A DNA stretch of 64,000 bases, from assembly GCA_949361645.1 (NCBI GenBank), contig OX442432.1, forward strand, positions 6,398,397 to 6,462,396, read 5' to 3'. This DNA comes from Spongilla lacustris (Eukaryota > Porifera > Demospongiae > Spongillida > Spongillidae). A program made the position numbers and the translations under genes. Numbering within the stretch: the stretch's first letter is position 1; every line of letters starts with the position of its first letter. Under the pieces are notes generated by a model, which saw nothing but the letters and a program-made list of their open reading frames with translations, was not told where the DNA came from and did no database searches. This document shows, one piece after another, positions 52,650 through 60,460 of the stretch.

Positions 52650-55600
52650 TTACAGAATAGTACTGCTCTGCTTGAAGAGGACCTGACCAGGCCTGGTGGC
52701 GGTCCTGCAAGCCTTGTTGAGGTCGTCCAGCATTGTCTTATGAACGTCACCCACTGTGAAGATGCCTATCTCCGTCTCCCCACCTTCGTTCCATATGTTA
52801 GAGTGCTGAGTATAAATGTCTTTAAAAGGAAAAAGAAAATATTTTTAAACAGTGTGGGGAACTTTATAACCAGCACCCTCCCCCCCCCCCCCCCCCCCCA
52901 ACCAAACATTCTTGCCAGCTTACATTCAAGAAGGCCATCAAAATCTGGAATTCCATAGGACGTCATACTGTAGAGGTTGTTGAGCTGTGGCTGGGATGGT
53001 CTCCGTCCAATGCAAGACTCTCCCGCTGTCTTTAAGCCCAGCTGCAGTAGGGCACTGGCCAGTTCATCGGGGGGACTGTCTATGTTGGTGAGAAACACCC
53101 TTATATCCAGGTAACGCTGGAGGTGTTCATCCAAGCAGAGATCGGACAAGTAGTCGGTAAACCACTGGGAAGGGGCAGAGGAGGATGAGGGAGGAAGGAA
53201 TAGATAATTAATGCCTGCTGTCAGATACGGGAGCACTTACCTCAAAGTCATTTCCACTCGGGATAACCCACACAAAGTACAATTTTGTAAGAATCGGATG
53301 GCATCTGTGAAGCCAGAAGAAGAAGTCACATCATTTGCTTATGCGTGGCAATCCAATGGTGCAACACATGCAGGCATCCCCCCCCCCCCCCGCCCCCAGG
53401 TGTTCCCCTCCCCCAGCCCTGCCCCCAGGTGTTCCCCCTCCCCCCTGCCCCCAGGTGCTCCCCTCCCCCCCCCCCTGCCCCCAGGTGCTCCCCTCCCCCC
53501 CCCCCTGCCCCCAGGTGCCCCCCCCCCCCCCCTGCCTCCAGGTACTCCCTCCATCGTGTTGCTGAAGTCACCTCGGTTGACTGCACAACACTTAATGTAA
53601 AACCTTATAGTGTCAACAATGTTTTCCAACATGGAGTCTGCAGGTGCACAACCACACTAGTGCACAACCACACAAACAGCATGTGGGAGAGTATGGCCAC
53701 CTGCTAAATTAATAGTCCACATGGAGTACTATAATACCGCTTGAACAAATCAATAAGGTTTTAAGCAAAGAAGTGCACTTGTCTCTATAGCCATAGCCAG
53801 AGCAGGCAGTGGAGTGCACCCCAGCCTACCCCCCTAACAGGTCTGATTGCACTTACCCGCAGAGACAGGAGTTATGTTTCCTATACTGCAGCAGTTTGGA
53901 CAGCACTGGCTTGGACATGTGAGGTCCATTTCCACCACACACCAGTGCAGAAATTTTGTAATCAAATACTGCATCACTGCCAGGTCCATAGCTGCAGGGG
54001 AAGGAGAGGGAAAGTGGATTAAGCAAAATGGTCACCTGGTCCACTATGCACACAGCCAGATACCACTGTGTGATACGTGCATGTGCATCTAGCCAGAGGC
54101 TCTTCTTATTGAGTTATTCCAGGATCTCTAATGATGCAGGTCTCACATTAATTTGCCTGATCTTAATTGAAGCCAGAGGAACGTTTGGCATCTCTAAATG
54201 TTGTCTCTTCTTCCCTCCCATGCATGCCCATGCATGCCCATGCATGCCCATATATGGCTACACAATATGGCTGACTCACGGGCCAGTGAATTGGAGTGTA
54301 AGCTGTTCAGAGATACATTCTGTTGAAGGTGTCATCTTGTTGTCTTCACTCCTGCTGTTGTTCTGTGAAGGCACCCTGTTGAAGGGGTGTGTCTTCATGG
54401 TCAGGAACATCTCTGTAAACCAGACATTTCCTTCTTTTGGGATGTAAATTGTCAGTTTCTGAAGGACGGAAAGAAAAAAAGATAAATTGTAATTATGTTG
54501 TTTAATAACATTGACTTACTGGTTCTTTTGGTCCAGAGCTGATGTAGCATCTGTGCCAGCCAAAGTATCCTATATAGAATACAGCAGTATACAGTAAGCA
54601 GTGCATTAGTGCAGTGTGAGGAGGAGGAGGGAAGAGGAGGGTAGAAGAGAAGGGGGGAGAAGGGAAGAGGGAGGTGGAGGAGGAGGAAAAGGGAGGAGGG
54701 AGGAGGAGGAAAAGGGAGGAGGGAGGAGGAGGAAAAGGGAGGAGGGAGGAGGAGGAAAAGGGAGGAGGGAGGAGGAGGAAAAGGGAGGAGGGAGGAGGAG
54801 GAAAAGGGAGGAGGGAGGAGGAGGAAAAGGGAGGAGGGAGGAGGAGGAAAAGGGAGGAGGGAGGAGGAGGAAAAGGGAGGAGGATGAGGGGAGGAGGGGA
54901 GAGGAGAAGGAAGAAGGGAGGAGGGAGAAGGGAGGAGGAAGAAGGGAGGAGGAAGAAGGGAGGAGGAAGAAGGGAGGAGGAAGGATGGAGGAGGGAGGAG
55001 GAGGAAATATAAGTGCTGACATGCTTACCAATTTTTTGGAAATTTAGCATGACAAATTGACCAGGAATGAAATCAAACTGCTTCGGCTTCTCCGTCTCAA
55101 TAACAGTGACCCTAGATACATCGTCGTAGGGACCAGCTGTCTTCACTGCTACAGTGTACTTGGCAGTGATCCAATGCCGATGAACCAACTCAAATCCCAT
55201 AATAAAGAGCAGCGGGAGGAGCCACTTCCAGAAAGACGGGTTCCAGTACCGGTCTCCATGTACGAGAATGAGGACGTAAACAAGGACAGTAGTCACCCAG
55301 TGGACCAGGTAAAACACTATGAATCTCATCCGCTTCCTTAAGGCAGGCACAGCGCTGCAGCCCATGGTGAGGATGGCCACAAGGACCAGCAGGCCGGTCA
55401 CAGCAGGACATAGGTGTACAGCAAGGCTGGTCGTGAAGCGGCTGCCATCGGTCACCTCCTCTGCCCCTCCTGTGGTGGTGTTGTGGCCGTCCAGTGCAAA
55501 GGAGCACAGGTGAAGACCCACATGTACAGCTGACCAGAAGGCTACGCCCCCAGCCACCAGCAGGTGGAAGTGGATGGGACGGTGGAGCGGAAACAGCTGC

Positions 55601-58600: not shown

Positions 58601-60460
58601 AAGGCGCTGGGGCAACAGCCTCCATGTCTGCACCACTGGACTTGAAGCTGTGCTTGGAAAGCTCTGTACCTGACCTCCCAGCTATGGCCAAGACATAGAC
58701 AGCCACAACGGACAGCAACCAAACGCCATATGCCACGCCCACTGTGATGGCAGCTACCTTTGTAGCGGGCCAAATGGCAAGACCCTAAATAAGGGGACAA
58801 GGATAGGAGTTGATAGCCTGTAACTCCCCCCCTCCTCCCCCCGTAAATCTCGTGCATCTTCCAATGAGCCCCTCCCATTAGTGTTGTGGGCGTACCCCCT
58901 ATGGCGCAACGTACCAAAAGAACATTAGCGATTCCCAAACAGGTGATGACGTGACCACACCCCCGATGCCACCGTCGCCATTGCACGCGCACAAGCAGTA
59001 GGGGAGTCGTGAGCGTCATGGTGAGAACGACCACGCCCACAACGGCGTGGACGGTTTGGCGGAAGTGGGCCCGCGTCGTCATCTGAACGTACGCGACTAC
59101 CAGTGCGAGGCCGGCCAGGCCGAGCGCCGTTCCAGTCGGCTGCATCAGCCTGTGGACGAGGTGCTTTTGGCTGTGCGCCATAAAGGCCCCCAGGGGTAGC
59201 AAGACTCCGAATGCGAGGATCATGGCAGCTGCGTGTGCATAAAGCAGGGGTAGGTACTGTTGCGATGCGGGTTGAGAACTGGCGAGGGTTATAATTCGAA
59301 TTGCCGCCCTGGTGGCGGGTCTGTTGGTGCAACGCAACAGATAGTCACCTTCTTCTTCGAAGTTATAGAAAGCTAATGAGATTAAAAATATACAAAGGCG
59401 TGTGGTGAATAAGATGGTATTGCAAGTATTCATTAAACTTGCCGTCAGACGCGCTCGCAATGTCCCTCTTTGATGTACGGTCCGATATTATCACCTTGCC
59501 GCATGGCTCGTTGGCGGCGGTCCAAACGACCGTGGCGTCGCTGCCTATGATGTGGACTTGGTCCTCGCATCCCTGGCAAAGCACGACGTGGTACTGCGAC
59601 AAGATGACTGAAAGGTTTCCGCTGGAGTTGCCGCAGGTGTACAAGTAGCGTCCGGTTGTATTGAGCGCGTACTCCCCAGCAAGTGGGTCCGTAATGACTG
59701 CTAGAAAGAAGAAATGAAGAATAACTAAATGGCTTAATTTTCGCACACAAATACATGCATGCATACGTGTGTAGACGGTACGGAGAGGGGGAAAAAATAT
59801 CTGATTAACAGCGAGCTCGAGTGCACCCACTTATATAGGGCGAGACAGGTCATAAAGCGGTCTTAGTATTTTTATCTTACGCAAGATATCCTTTGCGAAA
59901 ACAAATACTAGTAGAAAGGTCAACCACTGTTTATTTAACGAGGTGGGCTGCAGGCTAATAGTTCAGTTCCTAACCTTGTCCTGAGCCGCCATCAGTTCGG
60001 GAGAAATTGCAGGGGTGCGTTGTTGATATCAACGGTTGTCCGAGCAGTATTTGCGAGGTAACTGGACAGCTGATGTCTGCATTTCAGCATTGCCGAGGGA
60101 GAGAGACGATGAACTGAACACGTGCATGTACATGTGTTATAACTGTCGGCATTTAATGCGTTTTTATCGGCGTGTGTGTACAATCTGCACACATGCACAC
60201 AAGTAACACATTTTTAAAAAAATTCTTTTGCGATATCTAGCCATCGAACAGACAAATAGTAGTTCAAACAAAATAACATTTACTATGCAACCGCTGCAAT
60301 ACTAATACCTGCACGCAGCGAGTTCGCTGCAAAAAGAGAGGCTTTATCGTTAATTCCAGATGCACTTACCAAAAGGTAACTCTTCGTCAGCAAGTCCCTT
60401 CTGCAGTGATAACAACAGTGCGATAACAATAAGGATAGCTGGGCACCTTTCCCCTGCCAT
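52650..60460 (-). CDS. Cupredoxin-like / cytochrome b561 / PAS / EF-hand-like / NOX-ferric reductase fusion, 1413 aa, 18 exons
   Basis: Exons: 60460-60370, 59700-59443, 59372-58915, 58757-57649, 57389-57260, 57207-57128, 57036-56988, 56813-56625, 56511-56395, 56306-56277, 56211-55822, 55596-55029, 54569-54520, 54458-54280, 53991-53857, 53304-53241, 53164-52924, 52753-52650 (4242 nt, in phase). Signal peptide 1-24. Cupredoxin-like ectodomain about 31-147, copper ligands not evident. b561 core about 156-295 with H163, H190, H225, H257. Disordered linker about 300-630. PAS about 640-770 (MSHDAIVCANASGDIVFWS). EF-hand-like loop at 840. NOX membrane module about 870-1100 with two HX13H pairs (H978/H992, H1066/H1080). 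FAD/NAD domains follow, but HPFT is HRCY (1162) and the pyridine loop is CGGNGP (1251). Probably a transmembrane electron carrier under PAS control. Intron 2 uses a GC donor. Confidence 0.85.
53380..53540. repeat. C-rich minisatellite in fusion-gene intron 15
   Basis: Six or seven units of the type CCCCCAGGTGYTCCCCTCC. ORFs with long proline runs across it are repeat products. Confidence 0.85.
54615..55010. repeat. Purine-rich minisatellite in fusion-gene intron 12
   Basis: About eight copies of a 24-25 bp unit (GGAGGAGGAAAAGGGAGGAG) followed by degenerate GGAGGAAGAAGG repeats. Long Arg/Glu/Gly or Ser/Pro/Leu frames here are artefacts. Confidence 0.9.

Follow-up and report, generated by a model that had tools for sequence, protein, structure and literature searches.

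The window analysed here, a stretch of 64,000 nucleotides of the Spongilla lacustris genome (contig OX442432.1, positions 6,398,397 to 6,462,396 of the forward strand), was found to carry on its minus strand an orthologue of DspNOX, a sponge protein in which a cytochrome b561 half and an NADPH oxidase (NOX) half are joined on one chain. The haem histidines of both halves are retained, while the NADPH (reduced nicotinamide adenine dinucleotide phosphate) and FAD (flavin adenine dinucleotide) sites are changed at most of their conserved positions. Judging from the sequence, we give an even chance to a reading in which the b561 half probably acts as an electron conduit, with the NOX half being a pseudo-oxidase controlled by its PAS domain and fed by a separate reductase.

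The architecture itself is not new. The initial annotation of this DNA knew of no described protein with this order of modules, a claim that falls, by one of the refutations that the annotation itself had set, because the same order is already catalogued in other sponges as DspNOX (Hewitt and Degnan, BMC Biol 2022, PMC9524095), and the S. lacustris gene is a further member. The published species are the demosponges A. queenslandica, X. bergquistia, T. wilhelma and E. muelleri, and sequences were filtered in that study by their domains and the HHHH haem motif. As in those proteins, b561/DUF2427 helices, a long disordered linker, a PAS domain, an EF-hand-like region, a NOX core and FAD and NAD domains follow each other on the S. 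lacustris chain, and the HHHH motif of the NOX core is present. The published reading is that of a calcium-regulated NADPH oxidase (by its EF-hand, E. muelleri excepted), with roles also proposed for the PAS domain, disordered region and b561 part, whereas the residues described below argue otherwise. Whether the NADPH- or FAD-site residues were checked is not mentioned in the accessible portion of that paper, and no report of cofactor-motif loss in DspNOX was found in a literature search that covered few subscription journals, in which the name DspNOX occurred in one paper. The features of the gene are as follows, with residue numbers throughout referring to the 1483-residue, 19-exon model.

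52650..60460, minus strand: whole coding gene, DspNOX orthologue (19 exons, 4452 nt, 1483 residues)
59257..60460, minus strand: signal peptide plus ectodomain (cupredoxin-like in the published description), residues 1-189, including the exon at 60076-59975 (hydropathy; no profile match)
58668..59256, minus strand: b561/DUF2427 five-helix part, residues 190-342, with H197, H224, H259 and H286 (hydropathy, Pfam, alignment)
57672..58667, minus strand: low-complexity linker, predicted to be cytosolic, residues 343-674 (gene model, conservation)
56712..57671, minus strand: PAS domain, residues 675-802, exons 5-9 (Pfam, PDB sequence matches)
56110..56502, minus strand: degenerate EF-hand-like region, residues 835-919 (alignment, sub-threshold Pfam match, PDB matches)
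55174..56052, minus strand: NOX-type membrane core, residues 939-1156, with H1026/H1040/H1044, H1114/H1128 and Y982 at the putative R54 site (PDB sequence matches, alignment)
52650..55173, minus strand: dehydrogenase-like FAD and NAD lobes, residues 1157-1483, with altered cofactor motifs (Pfam, alignments)

Cofactor sites of the dehydrogenase half

A protein database search returned at least nine matches, five of which (P0001 to P0005) carry the family-specific parts. The dehydrogenase halves of S. lacustris, P0003, P0004 and P0005 were aligned with five canonical sequences, namely NOX5 and DUOX1 from the PDB and DUOX-, NOX2- and NOX5-like pieces of the S. lacustris genome; P0001 and P0002 were left out of the cofactor table and the fragment P0010 out of the counts. 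Cofactor columns were picked by hand, with 16 chosen and 14 counted, the two uncounted ones (the Pro of CGP and the terminal Phe, at which the canonical set varied or fell short) also being different in DspNOX. Of the 14 columns at which all canonical sequences agree, S. lacustris differs at 10, P0003 at 10, P0004 at 11 and P0005 at 10, and 12 were not retained by all four. These four sequences can be counted as three divergent groups, S. lacustris and P0003 being 82% alike.

The flavin pocket residues P339, F340, T341 and R356 of NOX2 (PMC9711523) correspond to Arg-Cys-Tyr-Pro in S. lacustris, and HPFT together with the Arg of HIR was not found in DspNOX sequences, some members retaining the His or Pro. 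At the NADPH site, GxGxGxTPF is replaced by CGGNGPHMS in S. lacustris, GRP by GIP and CGP by VGD, the ENF end is absent, and the motifs GxGxTPF, CGP and GRP were not found in DspNOX sequences. We take CGP, GRP and the terminal aromatic residue to be cofactor contacts, the C-terminal aromatic being supported by the literature. In NOX2, the P415H replacement in the NADPH motif is reported to result in an NADPH-binding defect with no superoxide, expression and FAD being normal (PMC9674757).

As a control, nine NOX/DUOX loci of the S. lacustris genome were scanned for the same motifs. GxGxTP, CG[PA] and GRP were each identified at 9/9 loci, and HPFT and the ENF end each at 8/9, with both misses at one NOX5-like locus for which a 3.2-kb stretch was scanned. 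The canonical matches are clustered (four DUOX-like, three NOX2-like and two NOX5-like; G000:C7:7907352-7944784, C7:5776406-5796801, C24:5992963-5998822).

A CxCGC cluster was also observed in the dehydrogenase-like half (residues 1323-1327; 53867-53857 and 53304-53301), which is invariant in aligned members, NOX5 having CPSC at this position. It is possibly a metal or redox site.

Haem ligands, oxygen site and EF-hand-like loop

Residues H197, H224, H259 and H286 of the b561 part form the H1-H4 pattern of b561 proteins, in which H1 and H3 lie outside and H2 and H4 inside (PMC10691727). Situated on four helices, these histidines are all kept in S. lacustris and P0004. For the haem, EF-hand and R54 sites of the NOX half, P0002 was dropped from the alignment, the NOX helices being absent from its gene model; H1026/H1040, H1114/H1128 and H1044 (H119 of NOX2) were present in 5/5 sequences, and a TG pair was invariant in aligned members. 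The histidines claimed by the initial annotation, four in b561 and two HX13H pairs in NOX, are thus all present, and its figure of up to four haems is borne out at the level of ligands, such that up to four membrane haems would be bound if every site is occupied. The second NOX pair has X13 spacing in the five aligned sequences and, by reading, in P0010, in contrast to X12 spacing in NOX5 and DUOX1 of the PDB and in four DUOX-like and one NOX5-like S. lacustris loci (the NOX2-like loci being unscored), a difference that reads as a conserved one-residue insertion between haem ligands.

At the oxygen site, the column aligned to the basic residue of canonical enzymes (Arg in DUOX1, Lys in NOX5) holds Tyr in 4/5 sequences and Phe in 1/5, the residue in S. 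lacustris being Y982. This site probably corresponds to R54 of NOX2, for which an Arg54Ser replacement was reported to give no superoxide. The loop aligned to the EF hand of NOX5 carries Asn (4/5) or Gly (1/5) at position 12, and because functional EF hands of the canonical type carry Asp or Glu there (PMC9421330), calcium control through this loop appears unlikely.

Compared with NOX5 and DUOX, DspNOX therefore has a membrane core with the four haem histidines, the H119 equivalent and the TG pair, and its FAD and NAD lobes are recognisable, but it differs in its changed cofactor motifs, in the X13 spacing of the histidines of the fifth transmembrane helix, in the Tyr or Phe at the R54 site, in its degenerate EF loop and in the addition of b561 and PAS. 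The likenesses would be accounted for by a working oxidase, as DspNOX is named in PMC9524095, that makes superoxide under calcium regulation and whose diverged sites still bind FAD and NADPH; the FAD and NAD domains above their Pfam cut-offs and the retained haem histidines, H119 equivalent and TG pair favour it. The altered GxGxTP, CGP, GRP, HPFT, HIR and ENF motifs, kept by the S. lacustris paralogues, and the five of five sequences diverging both at the R54 site and at EF loop position 12 speak against it, and we regard such an enzyme as unlikely.

PAS domain and conservation of the modules

Among PDB sequences, FixL was nearest to the PAS domain (E 1.2e-11), and 13 of the 16 matches were FixL or DosP-type haem sensors. 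In NCBIfam, P0004 and P0005 matched S-box and FixL models, the FixL match being far under the full-length cut-off. A histidine of the domain aligns to the FixL histidine that is presumably its proximal haem ligand. Since the same histidine occurs in 4/4 bacterial PAS matches examined, for which the cofactor is unknown, haem binding by this PAS is put forward only as a lead.

Identity of the S. lacustris protein to P0004 and P0005, respectively, was 77 and 79% in the PAS domain, 71 and 63% in the NAD-like lobe, 64 and 58% in the EF-like region, 50 and 42% in the b561 part, 48 and 47% in the NOX membrane core, 44 and 43% in the FAD-like lobe, 36 and 30% in the linker, and 24 and 21% in the ectodomain (the latter over 47 aligned residues). 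Despite its changed NADPH residues, the NAD-like lobe shows higher conservation than the haem core, which argues that the gene is not decaying, and this conservation would fit a binding surface for another protein.

With PAS and the NAD-like lobe as the best conserved large modules, the catalytic motifs changed and DUOX-, NOX2- and NOX5-like genes encoded in the same genome, the protein could instead be a pure sensor or regulator, in which haems and PAS would sense oxygen or redox state and the pseudo-dehydrogenase lobe would control another NOX or DUOX, no electrons flowing through it. The four NOX haem histidines and the H119 equivalent, kept in 5/5 sequences, would however be needless without haem chemistry, and this role seems to us improbable.

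Proposed electron flow

In the predicted topology the N-terminus would lie outside and the linker, PAS and EF-like region inside, with the two haem ladders side by side and both leading outward, in parallel and not in series. The b561 half would form a transmembrane conduit from cytosol to outside for electrons of an ascorbate-type donor, such outward movement having been proposed for CYBDOM proteins (PMC10691727). DspNOX resembles CYBDOM and cytochrome b561 proteins in the extracellular domain preceding a b561 core with the H1-H4 pattern, but the S. lacustris ectodomain has no Pfam DOMON match and the b561 part is fused to a linker, PAS and NOX-like half. The NOX half, its haem histidines being retained, is likely to have lost its own use of NADPH and would need another electron source, because most of the conserved NADPH and FAD site residues are lost. 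A docking partner reductase would supply its haems in the manner of STEAP1, a protein that cytochrome b5 reductase is able to reduce (PMC10659578), and PAS would control electron entry. STEAP1 likewise combines a haem core of the ferric-reductase superfamily with the lack of a functional NADPH domain and is reducible by another reductase, but no dehydrogenase domain is present in STEAP1, whereas DspNOX keeps a conserved one with altered cofactor residues.

The initial annotation had envisaged a self-contained trans-membrane electron relay, in which b561 would take electrons from ascorbate and hand them to the NOX haems, making a series of four. Both histidine sets are on one chain and the usual feed of the NOX part appears to be gone, as such a relay would have it. 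A series of four haems is nevertheless made less likely by the parallel arrangement of the ladders in the predicted topology and by the loose, poorly conserved linker of more than 300 residues between the halves; P0005, moreover, is without one cytosolic b561 haem ligand, and the NADPH and FAD residues of the NOX ladder are mostly lost. The relay is thus left unsupported and appears the least probable of the arrangements considered, and both it and the published calcium-regulated oxidase are less likely than a conduit joined to a pseudo-oxidase.

Several observations weigh against the conduit and pseudo-oxidase in turn. The cofactor sites survive in part, with the His before the flavin pocket kept in S. 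lacustris and P0003, the pocket Pro in P0004 and P0005, the third Gly of the NADPH loop in 3/4 sequences, and GPYG, the SS pair and FEW in most members, and FAD_binding_8 and NAD_binding_6 still score above their Pfam cut-offs. Other canonical-invariant columns were also lost (23/41, against 12/14 at cofactor sites), the excess not being significant (Fisher p = 0.059). The argument for disarmed sites would accordingly be carried by the identity of the lost residues and by the same loss in divergent members, and not by the Fisher test. In P0005, Tyr replaces b561 H2, a histidine of the cytosolic haem, and the partner reductase is a postulate.

In its boldest form, which we hold to be a tentative possibility, the pseudo-oxidase would be a disarmed and rewired animal NOX with dead NADPH and FAD sites and a live haem ladder, in which a FixL-like PAS, possibly a haem-based oxygen sensor, would gate an outside reductase or the b561 feed. 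It would then act as a sensor-gated double electron channel rather than an oxidase, which would make the name DspNOX wrong as to function. The published label is at odds with the loss, in the four sequences compared, of most conserved NADPH and FAD residues, and with that of the acidic EF ligand and of the basic oxygen-site residue, together with the conservation of the haem ligands and the NAD-like lobe. If this were confirmed, the number of enzymes counted as producers of reactive oxygen species in early animals would have to be revised, and a natural pseudo-NOX would be available in sponges for studying electron entry apart from NADPH.

Gene model and domain assignment

Splicing of the 18 exons of the initial annotation across 60460-52650 gave an in-phase frame of 4350 nt and 1449 residues with no internal stops; the claim of phase through all junctions holds, but the annotated length of 4242 nt and 1413 codons could not be reproduced and the exon count is 19. 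The overlooked exon, of 102 nt, lies at 60076-59975 inside intron 1, has AG and GT borders and is in phase 1 at both ends, and its translation is 57.5% identical to residues 31-70 of Em0019g755a (tblastn, E 8e-12). With it, the corrected model of 4452 nt and 1483 residues is open throughout. A GC donor was found at exon 3.

Pfam domains above cut-off in the whole protein were DUF2427, PAS, FAD_binding_8 and NAD_binding_6. Against a cut-off of 23.0 bits, Cytochrom_B561 (PF03188) scored 23.9 with residues 1-321 of the 18-exon model and 22.5 with a 166-residue core, DUF2427 passing its cut-off with both queries; in the relatives P0004 and P0005, DUF2427 fell under the cut-off and Cytochrom_B561 was not among the Pfam matches. 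The hydropathy scan identified a signal-peptide-like start, the helices of the five-helix b561 part and five of the six expected NOX-core helices, the sixth being below the threshold used. The NOX membrane part had no Pfam match above cut-off, PF01794 being unmatched even when this part was searched alone, but the C-terminal half matched NOX5 (E 8e-34) and DUOX1 (E 6e-19) among PDB sequences. An AlphaFold model of P0003 made with four relatives had a mean predicted local distance difference test score (pLDDT) of 33.4 and was not used.

The ectodomain matched nothing in Pfam, NCBIfam or PDB sequences, was not recognised as DOMON by Pfam, and no full set of type 1 copper ligands was visible in it by eye; the label cupredoxin derives from a Gene3D assignment in the published E. 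muelleri protein (PMC9524095). The EF-hand-like region has a degenerate loop and a sub-threshold Pfam match (E 0.24). The initial annotation is therefore confirmed in part as an observation and supported in part as an interpretation. Its b561, PAS and NOX/ferric-reductase modules on one gene agree with Pfam and with the similarity to NOX5 and DUOX1, and the domain search that it proposed recovered PAS, FAD_binding_8 and NAD_binding_6, b561 narrowly and ferric reductase (PF01794) not at all; its cupredoxin-like module, for which there is the published Gene3D call, is weak, and so is its EF-hand-like one.

Relatives and the one-gene question

The possibility that the b561 and PAS-NOX halves belong to two genes was ruled out, and the claim of one gene upheld, because in P0004 and P0005 a single unbroken frame encodes b561, linker, PAS and NOX alike. 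The frames span 1528 codons on a 4965-nt contig (P0004) and 1388 codons on a 5048-nt contig (P0005); they start with the ectodomain or at its end, take in b561, the linker and PAS, and finish at the NAD-like end. The contigs of approximately 5 kb are likely to be transcripts, since the S. lacustris gene with its introns spans 7.8 kb. The listed frame of P0003 begins at the last b561 helix.

The remaining four matches of the protein database search covered 9% of the query, all within PAS, and three of them are named PAS S-box proteins. With residues 735-1388 of P0005 as query the same five proteins were found again, and a profile search with the NOX half yielded one further relative, the fragment P0010, which stops ahead of the cofactor sites; the protein database and profile searches scored the best-sharing 7990 and 7994 candidates, so further relatives are possible. 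When P0003 was searched against the S. lacustris genome, 14 of the 16 matches fell at the DspNOX locus, the other two being weak (E 1e-4 and 1e-3) and on NOX5-like and NOX2-like loci.

Identity of the S. lacustris protein to Em0019g755a and Em0019g766a was 70 and 67%; we read the label Em as E. muelleri. Each Em model is missing exons, whereas the S. lacustris model is complete. In P0001 the helix with the fourth b561 histidine is lost, as if by a frame change, and is kept in P0002, which in turn lacks the NOX stretch holding the first histidine pair that is kept in P0001; the S. lacustris gene has both stretches. A further 43 residues, within PAS, are missing from both Em models and correspond to S. 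lacustris exons 7 and 8 (57207-57128 and 57036-56988; 129 nt, in frame), a stretch present in S. lacustris, P0003, P0004, P0005 and P0010. This is either an annotation gap or a cassette able to switch the sensor. Exons 7 and 8 carry the PAS histidine that aligns to FixL. The published E. muelleri protein was given three extra helices, and two further DspNOX-like sequences in that study were without HHHH (PMC9524095). Assuming that P0001 and P0002 are identical with the sequences of that paper, the Em models suggest that gaps in gene models may explain both oddities.

Other sequence observations

The linker exon contains an in-frame tandem duplication at 57879-57975 (51-nt unit, 1.9 copies), the aligned relatives having one copy. 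Intron 13 of the gene holds an array of a 23-nt purine-rich minisatellite (54618-55007), and 31-nt minisatellite arrays lie upstream of the gene at 62242-62572 and at the end of the window at 63633-64000. A divergent plus-strand gene was identified at 60737-61118, the ATG of which, at 60737, lies 276 bp from the DspNOX start, and a common promoter region may serve both genes. Its first residues resemble what we take to be the N-terminus of HEATR5.

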